A DNA stretch of 44,642 nt from Deltaproteobacteria bacterium (GTDB taxonomy: Bacteria > Desulfobacterota > Binatia > DP-6): contig VBKJ01000149.1 of the NCBI GenBank assembly GCA_005879795.1, forward strand, positions 1 to 44,642, written 5' to 3'. Of the stretch, positions 19,241-36,292 are shown one piece after another; the stretch's first letter is position 1, and the number at the start of each line of letters is the position of its first letter. The notes below the pieces were generated by a model. It was not told the DNA's origin. It did no database searches and saw only the letters and a program-made list of their open reading frames with translations. The position numbers and the translations under genes were made by a program.

Positions 19241-20551
19241 ATGACCCGGGTCTCGATGGCCACCCTCGGCTGCAAGGTGAACGCCTACGACTCGGCGACC
19301 ATCGCCGACCGCCTGCGGGCCGCGGGCTGTGAGATCGTCCCCGCGGGCGCGCCCGCCGACGTGGTGGTCGTCAACTCCTGCACGGTGACCGACGCCGCCG
19401 ACGCCGAGAGCCGCCGGCTCGCGCGCCGCGCCCGGCGCGAGCACCCCGCCGCACGCGTCATCCTGACCGGCTGCTACGCGCAGACGAAGGCCGCCGAGGC
19501 CGCGGCCGAGCCGGCGGTCGACCACGTGATCGGCTTGAACCGCCTCGAGGCGCTGGTGGCCGCCGTCACCGCGCCGCTTCCGGCCGTGGCACGCGTTGTC
19601 GTCGGTAACGCGCGCCGGGAGCGGACGGTCACGACCTTCGGCGCGCGCACCTTCGCGGGGCAGACGCGCGCCTTCCTGAAGGTGCAGGAGGGCTGCGACC
19701 TCTTCTGCACGTTCTGCATCATCCCGCTCGCGCGCGGTGCCAGCCGGAGCCTCGCGCCGCGCGACGTGCTCGCCGAGGTGGCGGCCCTCGCCCGCGCGGG
19801 CTTCGAGGAGGTCGTGCTCACCGGTGTCCACCTGGGCGGCTACGGGCAGGACCTGACCCCGCCGGTCGACCTCGCCTGGCTGGTCGCCGCCCTCGCCGAG
19901 CAAGGGCTCGTGCCGCGCCTCCGCCTCTCCTCGATCGACCCCCACGAGGTGACCGAGCCGCTCGTCCGCCTGCTGGCGCGCGCGCCGGCGCTCTGCCCGC
20001 ACCTCCACGTCCCGCTCCAGTCGGGCGACGACACGGTCCTCCGCCGCATGCGCCGGCGCTACGACACGGCGCTCGCGCGCGAGCGGCTCGCGATGATGCG
20101 CGAGCTCCTGCCCGAGGCCGCCATCGGCACGGACCTGATCGCCGGCTTCCCGGGCGAGGACGAGGCCGCCTTCGAGCGCACGCTCGCCTTCGTCGAGGAG
20201 AGCCCGTTCACTTACCTGCACGTCTTCCCCTACTCGGTACGGAGCGGGACGACCGCCGCCAAGCTCGAGGGACGGAATCCGCCCGCCACCATCGTGGCGC
20301 GCGCGCGCCGCCTGCGCGCGCTCGGCGAGCGCAAGCGCGCGGCGTTCGCCCGCCGCTTCGACGGCGCGGAGGCGGAGGTGCTGGTCGAGACGACGCGCGA
20401 CCCCGCGAGCGGCCACCTGCGCGGCTACACGCGCAACTACCTGCGGGCCCGCCTGGCCGGGCCCGACGCGTGGCGCGGGCAGCGCCTGCGTGCGCGCCTC
20501 GCCGTGGGGCGCGCGGGCGAGGTGACCGCGGCCGAGGCTCGGGAGGCATGA
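19241..20551 (+). CDS. mtaB: tRNA t6A37 methylthiotransferase MtaB
   Basis: A 436-residue radical-SAM enzyme adding a 2-methylthio group to t6A37. The N-terminal UPF0004 domain starts with TLGCKVNAYDS and supplies three more cluster cysteines (NSCTVTD, TGCYAQ). The radical-SAM cluster is C152-x3-C156-x2-C159 (CDLFCTFC), followed by IIPLARGASRS and the GVHLGGYG segment typical of MtaB rather than MiaB or RimO. A C-terminal TRAM-like stretch is present. It uses the t6A made with TsaE, encoded upstream. Its stop overlaps the rnc ATG (ATGA). Confidence 0.92.
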   Translation: MTRVSMATLGCKVNAYDSATIADRLRAAGCEIVPAGAPADVVVVNSCTVTDAADAESRRLARRARREHPAARVILTGCYAQTKAAEAAAEPAVDHVIGLNRLEALVAAVTAPLPAVARVVVGNARRERTVTTFGARTFAGQTRAFLKVQEGCDLFCTFCIIPLARGASRSLAPRDVLAEVAALARAGFEEVVLTGVHLGGYGQDLTPPVDLAWLVAALAEQGLVPRLRLSSIDPHEVTEPLVRLLARAPALCPHLHVPLQSGDDTVLRRMRRRYDTALARERLAMMRELLPEAAIGTDLIAGFPGEDEAAFERTLAFVEESPFTYLHVFPYSVRSGTTAAKLEGRNPPATIVARARRLRALGERKRAAFARRFDGAEAEVLVETTRDPASGHLRGYTRNYLRARLAGPDAWRGQRLRARLAVGRAGEVTAAEAREA

Positions 20552-34140: not shown

Positions 34141-35376
34141 TCATTCGAAGCGCAGCGCCTGCACGGGGTGCAGCTCGGCCGCCTGGCGAGCGGGGAAGAG
34201 CCCGAAGAGGAGCCCCACCGAGGCGGCGGTTCCGAAGGCGATGAGCACGCTCACGAGGGAGAAGGCCGTAGCCCACCCCGCGTAGAGGGTGATGCCCTTG
34301 GCCATCCCGAAGCCGATCACGGTGCCGATCGTGCCCCCGGCGAGGCAGACGAGCACCGTCTCGATGAGGAACTGCCTCAGCACGTCACGCTTCGACGCGC
34401 CGATGGCGCGACGCACGCCGATCTCGCGCGTTCGCTCCGACACGTTCGCGAGCATGATGTTCATGATGCCGATGCCGCCGACGAGAAGCGAGATGCCCGC
34501 GATCGACCCCATGACGATGTTGAAGATGCGCTGGGTCCGCTGCGCCTGAGCGAGAAGCTCCTCGGGCACCATCACTTCGTAGTCCTCCACGTCGCGGTGC
34601 TGCGGGCCGACGATCCCCCGGATCGCGCGAGCGGTCACGGAGAGCTGGGAGGCGTCGGCGACGCGGACCGCGATCTCCTCGATGGCCGCCGGGTCGCCGG
34701 TGCGCGGGAAGCGCCGGAGCGCGGTCGTGATCGGGAGGTAGACGTCGCGGTTGATGTTCCGTAGCTTGATGACGGCCCCCCGGCCCTCGCGGATGAGCTT
34801 CGGCTCCATTACGCCGACCACCTGGCACGAGCTCTGACCGATGGTGAGCGCAGCCCCGAGCGCGTCGGCATAGCCGAACAGGTCCTGCTTCAGCTCGGAA
34901 CCGAGCACGCAGACCCTCTTGCTGTCCCGGAGGTCGAAGGGCGAGAGGAAGCGCCCCTGGCCGACCCGGAAGTTCGTCACATCCTGATACTCCGGGGTCG
35001 TGCCGACGACCTGGGCGACGCCCTGGCGAGCCCCGAAGCGCGCCTCCTGGTCCAGGAACTTGACGGGCGCGACGCCTAGCAGGCCGGGCAGCCGGTCCCG
35101 GACGAGGAGCGCGTCGTCGTAGGTGAGGCCGCGCGAGAAGCGGCGCTCCGCCTCCGCTCGCATCTCGCCCGTCAGCTCGAGCCGTTTCACGCGGATGTTG
35201 TTCGTCCCGAGGAGCTTGATCTGCTCGGTCGCCTCCCGCCGCGCGCCCTCGCCGATCGACATCATGGAGATGACCGCCGCCACCCCGAATACGATCCCGA
35301 GCGTGCTGAGCAGGGTGCGAAGCTTGCGCACGAGGAGGCCCCTGATGGCAATGTCGATGCTGTCGGACCAGTGCAG
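34141..35376 (-). CDS. MacB-type ABC transporter permease, probable CTG start
   Basis: A FtsX/MacB permease with one N-terminal membrane helix (TLLSTLGIVFGVAAVISMM), a large periplasmic MacB_PCD domain, and three C-terminal helices (IAGISLLVGGIGIMNIML onwards), ending ALRFE as in the family. A GTG at 35331 would remove 15 residues (LHWSDSIDIAIRGLL) that belong to the fold. In that frame TGA lies 33 bases upstream of codon CTG at 35376, with no ATG, GTG or TTG between. GAGGGAG at 35384-35390 stands 7 bases before the CTG, so CTG is the likely start and gives 411 residues. The ATPase domain is a separate gene upstream, unlike one-chain MacB. Confidence 0.85.
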   Translation of the reverse strand: MHWSDSIDIAIRGLLVRKLRTLLSTLGIVFGVAAVISMMSIGEGARREATEQIKLLGTNNIRVKRLELTGEMRAEAERRFSRGLTYDDALLVRDRLPGLLGVAPVKFLDQEARFGARQGVAQVVGTTPEYQDVTNFRVGQGRFLSPFDLRDSKRVCVLGSELKQDLFGYADALGAALTIGQSSCQVVGVMEPKLIREGRGAVIKLRNINRDVYLPITTALRRFPRTGDPAAIEEIAVRVADASQLSVTARAIRGIVGPQHRDVEDYEVMVPEELLAQAQRTQRIFNIVMGSIAGISLLVGGIGIMNIMLANVSERTREIGVRRAIGASKRDVLRQFLIETVLVCLAGGTIGTVIGFGMAKGITLYAGWATAFSLVSVLIAFGTAASVGLLFGLFPARQAAELHPVQALRFE

Positions 35377-35389
35377 GGTCGGTCTCCCT

Positions 35390-35591
35390 CTAGGAGTCCG
35401 TCCGAGTAATCATGGTGAGCGAGGCGAACGAGCCGGGGAGCGAGAGCGGCAAGCGCAGCGACGACCGACGAGGTGCGGCGCGCGGGACGCGCGCCGGGAG
35501 TTGGTCGCCGCAGGAGGGAGGAGCGAGCACGCCGCTCGCAGCCCCCGGATCGTTCGCCGCAGCCGCCATGATTACTCGGACGGCCTCCTAG
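35390..35591. repeat. 202-bp foldback element between ATPase and permease genes
   Basis: The ends are a 26-bp inverted repeat (35390-35415 and 35566-35591) with one mismatch. Inside are a further 16-bp pair with one mismatch (35423-35438 and 35543-35558) and a perfect 7-bp central hairpin (35477-35483 and 35489-35495), so the whole stretch can fold end to end. It contains no gene. It runs exactly from the stop codon of the ATPase gene (35588-35590 lies within one arm) to the ribosome site of the permease. No target-site duplication is visible. It could be a MITE-like element or a structured operon spacer. Confidence 0.85.
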
Positions 35592-36292
35592 GCCCCCGGC
35601 GCCGCCGCCGCGGGCGGCTGCTTCGAGTCGCTCACGATGTGGCCGTCGCGCATGTGGATCGTCCGCTGCGCGTAGGCCGCCACATCGGGATCGTGCGTCA
35701 CCAGCACGATCGTCGTCCCCCGGCGGTTCAGGTCGACGAAGAGCTTCATGATGTCCTCGCCCGTCTTGCTGTCGAGGTTCCCGGTCGGCTCGTCGCCGAA
35801 GAGGAGCAGCGGCTCGACGACGAGGGCGCGCGCGATGGCGACGCGCTGCATCTCTCCGCCCGAGAGCTCCGTCGGCCGATGTCGCCCCCTCCTCTCGAGG
35901 CCGACCTCGCGGAGGATGGCGAGGCTCCGCTCGCGCCGGAGGGGGCGCGCGACCCCGGCGTACACGAGCGGCAGCTCGACGTTCTCGAGGACGTCGTGCT
36001 GCGAGATCAGGTTGAAGGCCTGGAAGACGAAGCCGATCTTCCGGTTGCGGATGCGCGAGAGCTCGGTGTCCTCGATCTGCTCGACGGCCACGCCATCGAG
36101 GCGGTAGCGGCCCCCGCTCGGCCGGTCGAGGCAGCCGAGGAGGTGGAGGAGCGTCGACTTGCCTGACCCCGACGGTCCCATGATGGCGAGGAACTCGCCC
36201 CGCTCCACTGCGAGGTCCACGCCGCGCAGCGCTGGGACCTCGGTCGCGCCCGTCCAGTAGCTCCTGCGGAGCTCCGTGGCGTCGATCAGCAT
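35588..36292 (-). CDS. ABC transporter ATP-binding protein (MacB/LolD type)
   Basis: A 234-residue ATPase energising the MacB-like permease. Walker A GPSGSGKST, Q-loop FQAFNLI, signature LSGGEMQR, Walker B LLLFGDEPTGNLD and the H-loop TTIVLVTHDPDVA are all present. The C-terminal QPPAAAAPGA tail is short. It starts two bases after the adaptor stop (ATG at 36292, stop at 36294 on the same strand). It precedes the foldback element, so a ribosome or polymerase must pass that hairpin to make permease. Confidence 0.93.
   Translation of the reverse strand: MLIDATELRRSYWTGATEVPALRGVDLAVERGEFLAIMGPSGSGKSTLLHLLGCLDRPSGGRYRLDGVAVEQIEDTELSRIRNRKIGFVFQAFNLISQHDVLENVELPLVYAGVARPLRRERSLAILREVGLERRGRHRPTELSGGEMQRVAIARALVVEPLLLFGDEPTGNLDSKTGEDIMKLFVDLNRRGTTIVLVTHDPDVAAYAQRTIHMRDGHIVSDSKQPPAAAAPGA

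Follow-up and report, generated by a model that had tools for sequence, protein, structure and literature searches.

The segment at positions 35390-35591 of the window, a 44,642-nucleotide contig (VBKJ01000149.1 of assembly GCA_005879795.1) from a Deltaproteobacteria bacterium, occupies the gap between the genes for an ABC ATPase and a MacB-like permease. Our analysis indicates that it is very probably a foldback miniature inverted-repeat transposable element (MITE), a non-autonomous element with 22-bp ends of the IS1182 family that was moved in trans by an IS1182-type DDE transposase into a CTAG target, duplicating the CTAG. It has the features by which a MITE is recognized: it is short, carries no transposase gene, ends in terminal inverted repeats, occurs in dispersed copies, is bordered by a target-site duplication and shares its ends with an autonomous element. 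The copy in the operon has an ordinary explanation; what makes the family unusual is that its ends appear to be exchangeable on a conserved hairpin core.

The whole 202 nt fold as a single hairpin at a predicted -142.9 kcal/mol; shuffled sequences average -89.6 (sd 3.9; z -13.56), and none of 200 is as stable. When the operon strand was folded together with its flanks (301 nt), the same hairpin was predicted (z -6.79; 0 of 100 shuffles equal). The inverted repeat arms, 35390-35450 and 35531-35591, are 61 nt each and 82% complementary, and direct reading of their outermost 26 nt reveals a single mismatch. An earlier note, made from the sequence letters, had described a 202-bp hairpin filling the ATPase-permease gap with the ATPase stop codon in one arm, and both observations are correct: the stop codon of the ATPase open reading frame, TAG at 35588-35590, lies within the terminal CTAG. 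The note also had an arm ending at the permease ribosome site. The two do adjoin, but the ribosome-site-like AGGGAG (35384-35389, minus strand) is itself just outside, its first base immediately beyond the element and 7 nt ahead of the CTG at 35376-35374, the likely permease start. The features of the region are as follows.

35390..35591, plus strand (the strand with the G-A/G-A core mismatches in the 184-nt type and its relatives): complete element of the 202-nt type with its two CTAG copies
35390..35393, no strand: left target-site copy, CTAG
35588..35591, no strand: right target-site copy, CTAG, with the ATPase TAG stop (minus strand)
35394..35411, plus strand: left terminal inverted repeat, GAGTCCGTCCGAGTAATC
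35570..35587, minus strand: right terminal inverted repeat, GAGGCCGTCCGAGTAATC
35450..35531, plus strand: centre matching positions 61-124 of the 184-nt type, its conserved core, with the loop region changed and 18 nt longer
35588..36292, minus strand: ABC ATPase, the upstream gene; MacB and LolD score best among the models, each below its cut-off
34141..35376, minus strand: downstream gene, MacB-like permease; CTG start probable, alternative GTG at 35331
35384..35389, minus strand: AGGGAG, likely permease ribosome site by direct reading, directly outside the element

To place the element among its relatives, we searched its own genome (G000; 4.1 Mb in 280 contigs, completeness 99.56, contamination 3.91). 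BLAST returned 50 matches at E <= 0.001, some of which are an element against its own opposite strand; five matches, the window's among them, cover nearly the full length at 95-100% identity. A search for the 22-nt end that allowed 3 mismatches gave 41 occurrences, and the reversed pattern gave none. Pairing of ends no more than 420 bp apart within the fetched stretches gave 16 copies with both ends, the window's included, together with fragments. Their lengths range from 119 to 220 bp: two copies of 119, one of 181, six of 184, five of 202 and two of 220. The earlier note had itself proposed a genome search for other copies, and since copies were found, mobility stands on that count. Nine of the 16 have CTAG on both sides and seven have it on one side with an altered tetranucleotide on the other, and beyond these tetranucleotides the flanks are unrelated. 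When flanks were joined as a check for restored frames, many reading frames stayed open at this G+C content. A plasmid collection searched with the 184-nt type gave no match.

The two ends of a copy resemble each other closely, with at least 20 matches over 22 nt in 15 of the 16 copies and 16 matches in the remaining one. End positions 10, 16 and 20 fall into three main base combinations, CAA, CGA and TAG, each of which is seen in both the 184- and the 202-nt types; TAG is shared by both 220-nt copies, and a fourth combination, TAA, belongs to the 181-nt copy. At these positions the two ends of the same copy agree in 46 of 48 comparisons. Either arm-to-arm copying inside the hairpin or selection for pairing would give such concordance. 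At end position 8, 13 of the 16 copies have T at one end and G at the other, which counts against simple arm copying; this steady mismatch may mark left versus right ends.

The identity of the mobilizing enzyme is indicated by larger elements with the same or nearly the same ends. The end pattern is present in 44 stretches of named genomes, including Nitrospira, Acidobacteria, Acidimicrobiia, Planctomycetota and Gemmatimonadetes, in a search that may omit the window's own genome. Two complete elements with such ends and CTAG at both edges were found, at L071:242-1752 (1,511 bp) and L068:4417-5938 (1,522 bp). The left end of the former is identical to that of the window's element and the left end of the latter differs from it by one base, while both have the right end CTAGGAGCGTGTCCGAGTAATC, in which positions 8-10 are unlike those of the right end in the window's element. 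The L068 transposase, with DUF772 and DDE transposase domains, scores 363 bits against the IS1182 model (cut-off 270). Across the class, the IS1182 model matches in 89 of 148 genomes, with 23 above the cut-off. Inverted repeats at insertion-sequence distance were sought at 38 IS1182 loci from relatives and the class, fragments included, and at 10 of these, repeats starting with CTAGGAG or CTAGCAG stand at both ends.

An enzyme of another family that duplicates CTAG or YTAR, such as IS5, might have been responsible instead. Precedents for this come from Pseudomonas: MITEPsy1, whose probable parent is ISPsy2 (entered as 'IS5?'), makes duplications of CTAG or YTAA (PMC3189936, as described there in part), and according to the portion of PMC8027508 consulted, CTAG is targeted by ISPsy32, whereas the IS1182 element ISPsy36 uses GGCC. 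However, an element that has these ends encodes an IS1182 transposase, ends of the CTAGGAG/CTAGCAG type recur at IS1182 loci as given above, and the sole IS5-family element with ends seen in the class has AGAGCCTATCCC, unlike CTAGGAGTCCGTCCGAGTAATC. We therefore regard a different enzyme as very improbable and attribute the element to IS1182.

Loci in several Nitrospira genomes (L065, L073 and others) hold elements, mostly of 189 nt, that have the same kind of ends and are 88-93% identical to that of L065; they resemble the window's element only across the outer ~44 nt. The complete N. defluvii record carries such an element, of 163 nt.

Empty sites were seen for two sister copies in genomes of the same family. 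Two copies in G005, a genome of the same family (loci L049 and L039), were looked up in five other family genomes. At the L049 site the flanks nearly touch in three of them, with 5 nt left between them in G002, 12 nt in G006 and a single nucleotide in the window's own genome; one flank was matched in G001 and neither in G003. At the L039 site, the flanks are 4 nt apart in G006. In the clean empty sites, between 1 and 12 nt stand in the place of the element, and three of the four leave no room for a stem-loop. At both sites the CTAG adjoining the element holds the TAG stop of the gene on one side, and the homologs have TAG or TGA there. Together with the dispersed copies, the ends shared with IS1182 and the CTAG edges, these empty sites support the earlier note's suggestion that a non-autonomous mobile element landed in the operon.

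Several observations weigh against this reading. The L039 flanks lie 127 nt apart in G001, 823 nt in the window's own genome, about 1,480 nt in G003 and about 260 nt in G002, so that at this locus only one genome of the five is cleanly empty. In the empty alleles the single tetranucleotide has itself diverged (TTAG or CTAA, GTAG, CTGA), and the 4-bp duplication consequently rests mainly on the CTAG edges of many copies. No close ortholog of the window's operon was found among 37 relatives, the best-scoring permease match being 39% identical; with no insert-free allele of this operon, we infer the window's insertion from the sister copies. The L071 transposase frame is split in two pieces, and the model test was made on L068 only. 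Finally, the class-wide model search and further searches gave no IS1182 transposase match in the window's own assembly, so we make no claim of recent activity. This genome seems to carry the MITEs without their enzyme; draft assemblies often lose insertion sequences.

A different stretch of about 260 nt (L183; G002, contig 457, ~20284-20547), with inverted repeats of its own and CTAG on both sides, stands at the L039 site.

Since the repeats are palindromic, extragenic and often directly after genes, we also considered a transcription terminator or a repeat of the repetitive extragenic palindrome (REP) or bacterial interspersed mosaic element (BIME) type, with no transposable element involved. 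A run of T after the hairpin is absent on both strands, and REPs are described as 20-40 bp in the part of PMC3733652 drawn on here, compared with 119-220 bp in this family. The edge CTAGs, the 22-bp end shared with an insertion sequence and the empty sites are transposon features, and the empty sites already contradict such an origin, which we consider hardly credible.

The foldback MITE that we favour also accounts for its own exact position, because its target is rare. In 217,839 bases of the same genome, chosen around the copies plus the window and so not a random sample, base composition predicts 537 CTAG sites, but outside the paired copies there are 74, of which 30 are stop codons. Removal of 16 single element ends leaves 58 sites: 25 stop codons, 25 intergenic sites and 8 within genes. 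An element that targets CTAG would thus land mostly at gene ends, since CTAG is scarce and 50 of the 58 sites are outside gene interiors. The scarcity in these bases is about seven- to ninefold relative to the prediction from base composition.

Genes were called from codon usage by a simple program trained on the same genome, and the stop codons were tallied from these calls. A called gene has its stop codon inside an edge tetranucleotide in 9 of the 16 copies, the window's included, and in one copy this holds at both edges; among these nine, the edge of C143 reads GTAG and two of the called genes have a length of only 273 and 222 nt. A targeting preference for stop codons was rejected, since 9 of 16 does not differ significantly from 30 of 74 (P = 0.15) or 25 of 58 (P = 0.21). 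With no excess over expectation, the overlap is a by-product of the CTAG target, and the ATPase stop lies inside an arm because the duplicated CTAG includes that TAG. We conclude that the precise fit into the operon follows from the CTAG target and that no further cause is necessary.

In one 119-nt copy, L031:2980-3098, which lies between convergent called genes, both stop codons fall within the edge CTAGs; a single palindromic CTAG may have supplied both before insertion. A bias in orientation was dropped as not significant: of the genes whose ends lie no more than 80 nt away, 14 face the 3' end of the G-A strand and 5 face its 5' end (P = 0.064).

Within the operon, an adaptor protein is encoded upstream of the ABC ATPase and the MacB-like permease. 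The codon-usage gene caller left 35331 to 35588 free of genes, and no transposase gene is found in the 202 bp. An Rfam scan of the window gave 0 matches at or above the gathering score, and a tRNA scan of the window gave none. The list of open reading frames offers GTG at 35331 as an alternative permease start. In the permease gene (34141-35376, minus strand), no ATG, GTG or TTG is placed so as to retain the expected N-terminus.

These data suggest how the insertion could have come about. An IS1182 transposase would bind the 22-bp ends and excise the element; the excised element would then be joined to CTAG, and repair would leave the 4-bp duplication. At this locus the target CTAG would have held the ATPase stop, so that the duplication restored the stop codon, and the permease ribosome site would have been left intact just outside the element. 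A surviving stop codon and an untouched ribosome site would explain why the insertion was tolerated. Counted on the sequence, removal of the element minus one CTAG copy gives a stop codon-to-CTG spacing of 13 nt, which would be the former operon spacer. In the operon mRNA the hairpin would be present as its TC strand, possibly processed by RNase III, probably as a tolerated passenger of cotranscription.

To determine how far the structure is conserved, we followed the 184-nt type beyond the window's genome. It is also present in G004 and G005 of the same family and in G024 and G037 of the same class, where it is 82-89% identical over its full length to copy C131 of the window's genome. In 12 oriented sequences, both-sided changes occur in 18 of 69 pairs, compared with 7.9 (sd 1.7) after shuffling and 1-3 with slid partners, the structure having been derived from one of the 12 and the rows being related. 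This covariation shows that the arms change together, whatever the cause.

The hairpin could instead have been retained as a regulator of the operon, lowering permease relative to ATPase output or stabilizing the upstream mRNA, for instance via RNase III cutting. A very stable hairpin is predicted on the operon strand, base pairs covary between subfamilies, and PMC10969869, in the part used here, reports that Correia-bearing transcripts are cut by RNase III and that the enterobacterial repetitive intergenic consensus (ERIC) affects mRNA decay. The covariation, however, belongs to the family and not to this copy, and since the element sits in at least 15 other places, this operon is not what gave rise to the structure. 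A regulatory role at this locus therefore appears unlikely.

Read in the given orientation, the 184-nt type has in its core stem three 2 x 2 internal loops with GA opposite GA; the other strand has TC opposite TC. The middle loop is GA/GA in 17 of 18 cores, which carry four kinds of ends, and the two outer loops are GA/GA in 9 and 11 of the 18, with two standard pairs instead in 5 and 1; the 18 cores are related to one another, and the model that found them was built from this structure. Tandem G-A pairs form stable stacks. The retention of these tandem mismatches on one strand hints at a structure under selection and is best taken as a lead. In the 202-nt type the loop is so altered that the predicted fold lacks the G-A loops of the 184-nt type, so the G-A claims rest on the relatives of the window's copy.

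A covariance model of the 184-nt type was run over 143 genomes of the class, and 19 of them, the window's own included, gave matches. Seven elements with homologous cores have other ends, which are IS5-like, IS1380-like or of some further kind:

L228:1501-1685
L213:1501-1685
L214:1501-1685
L229:1501-1675
L253:501-683
L220:1501-1681
L026:5815-6004

The centres of L228 and L220 are 83% and 80% identical to the core of the window's family and their ends 41-48%; the ends of L228 are AGAGCYTATCCCACAAG, and those of L220 are close to AGAGCYTATCCCACAAG. For L213, L214, L229 and L253 the centre is 77-81% identical and the ends 37-63%, and these ends are CCCGGATTATTCATGA or close to it, with CTAG or CTAA borders. 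Local alignment of the six cores scored 26 to 42, compared with shuffle maxima of 14 to 17 (200 shuffles each) and 12 to 21 for merely reversed sequences. The seventh element (L026:5815-6004, copy C159) is in the window's own genome and has the ends CTAGTGTGC and a centre 84% identical, with a loop that pairs poorly (13 of 23 pairs). Scores were weaker for L215, L216, L231 and L264, which have ends of the L213 type (16-20 against shuffle maxima of 12-16). Among about 20 matches whose ends are CAGGCTGC.AAAAA-like or similar, the four short elements compared reached 14-20 against maxima of 14-16. The cores of L218, L219 and L222, which have ends of the IS1182 type, were no nearer the core of the window's family than shuffles, and the same held for L217, with other ends.

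Transposases could be placed near some of these other ends. The CCCGGATTATTCATGA ends are found in 11 of 139 genomes, and behind an end of this type in L269 lies a transposase fragment that scores 228 bits against the IS1380 model (cut-off 180), with one end seen; a second such fragment, in L262, reaches 161 bits, under the same cut-off of 180, again with one end seen. AGAGCC ends flank a 923-bp stretch in L286 in which one open frame passes an IS5 model (145 bits vs 110).

The occurrence of the same core under different ends, and of IS1182 ends on unrelated cores, makes ends and core look exchangeable. It is possible, though we would stop short of calling it probable, that the family is a modular foldback in which one ancestral hairpin core, with its G-A pairs conserved on one strand, acquired ends from three or more families of transposase (IS1182, IS1380 and IS5 among them), each change being copied to both ends. 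The core would then be the persistent unit, probably through a role that it plays, as folded RNA or single strand, for the element or its host. A literature search judged by titles turned up no paper on a CTAG-targeting IS1182 MITE or on MITEs with a common core under different ends. The striking operon hairpin is thus accounted for as a mobile element, and its exact position by a rare CTAG target; if the exchange of ends holds, the family would offer a view of how a short palindrome can free itself from reliance on one transposase, and of whether its fold is selected.

Among the closest known systems is the Chunjie MITE of Geobacter uraniireducens, which we liken to the window's element by description only. 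The part of PMC10969869 drawn on here states that one full-length Chunjie copy disrupts a phosphate-uptake operon, and a title in its reference list speaks of Chunjie insertion as tolerated in Geobacter. MITEPsy1 of Pseudomonas syringae resembles the window's element in being non-autonomous with a 4-bp duplication of CTAG or YTAA, and its mobility was demonstrated by an entrapment assay (PMC3189936). It differs in being 100 bp long, with the ends GGAAGGTCTGAAAAAGCC and a probable origin from ISPsy2 ('IS5?'), and a full-length foldback is not among the features described in the portion of that paper cited here. The IS1182 family, which includes IS1272 and ISPsy36, is the transposase family of the element that shares the ends of the window's element, which itself encodes no protein. 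According to the passages of PMC5678879 used here, which cite Siguier et al., some IS1182 members target palindromes, and the CTAG target of the window's family, a 4-bp palindrome, is in line with this. IS1272 is reported to replace stem-loops without duplication (PMC5678879); unlike IS1272, the window's family has CTAG at both edges (9 of 16 copies), and its sites do not fit stem-loop replacement. The Tn3-derived inverted-repeat miniature elements (TIMEs) are non-autonomous like the window's element but have Tn3 ends instead, and they are reported, in the part of PMC4133298 considered, to generate mosaic transposons.
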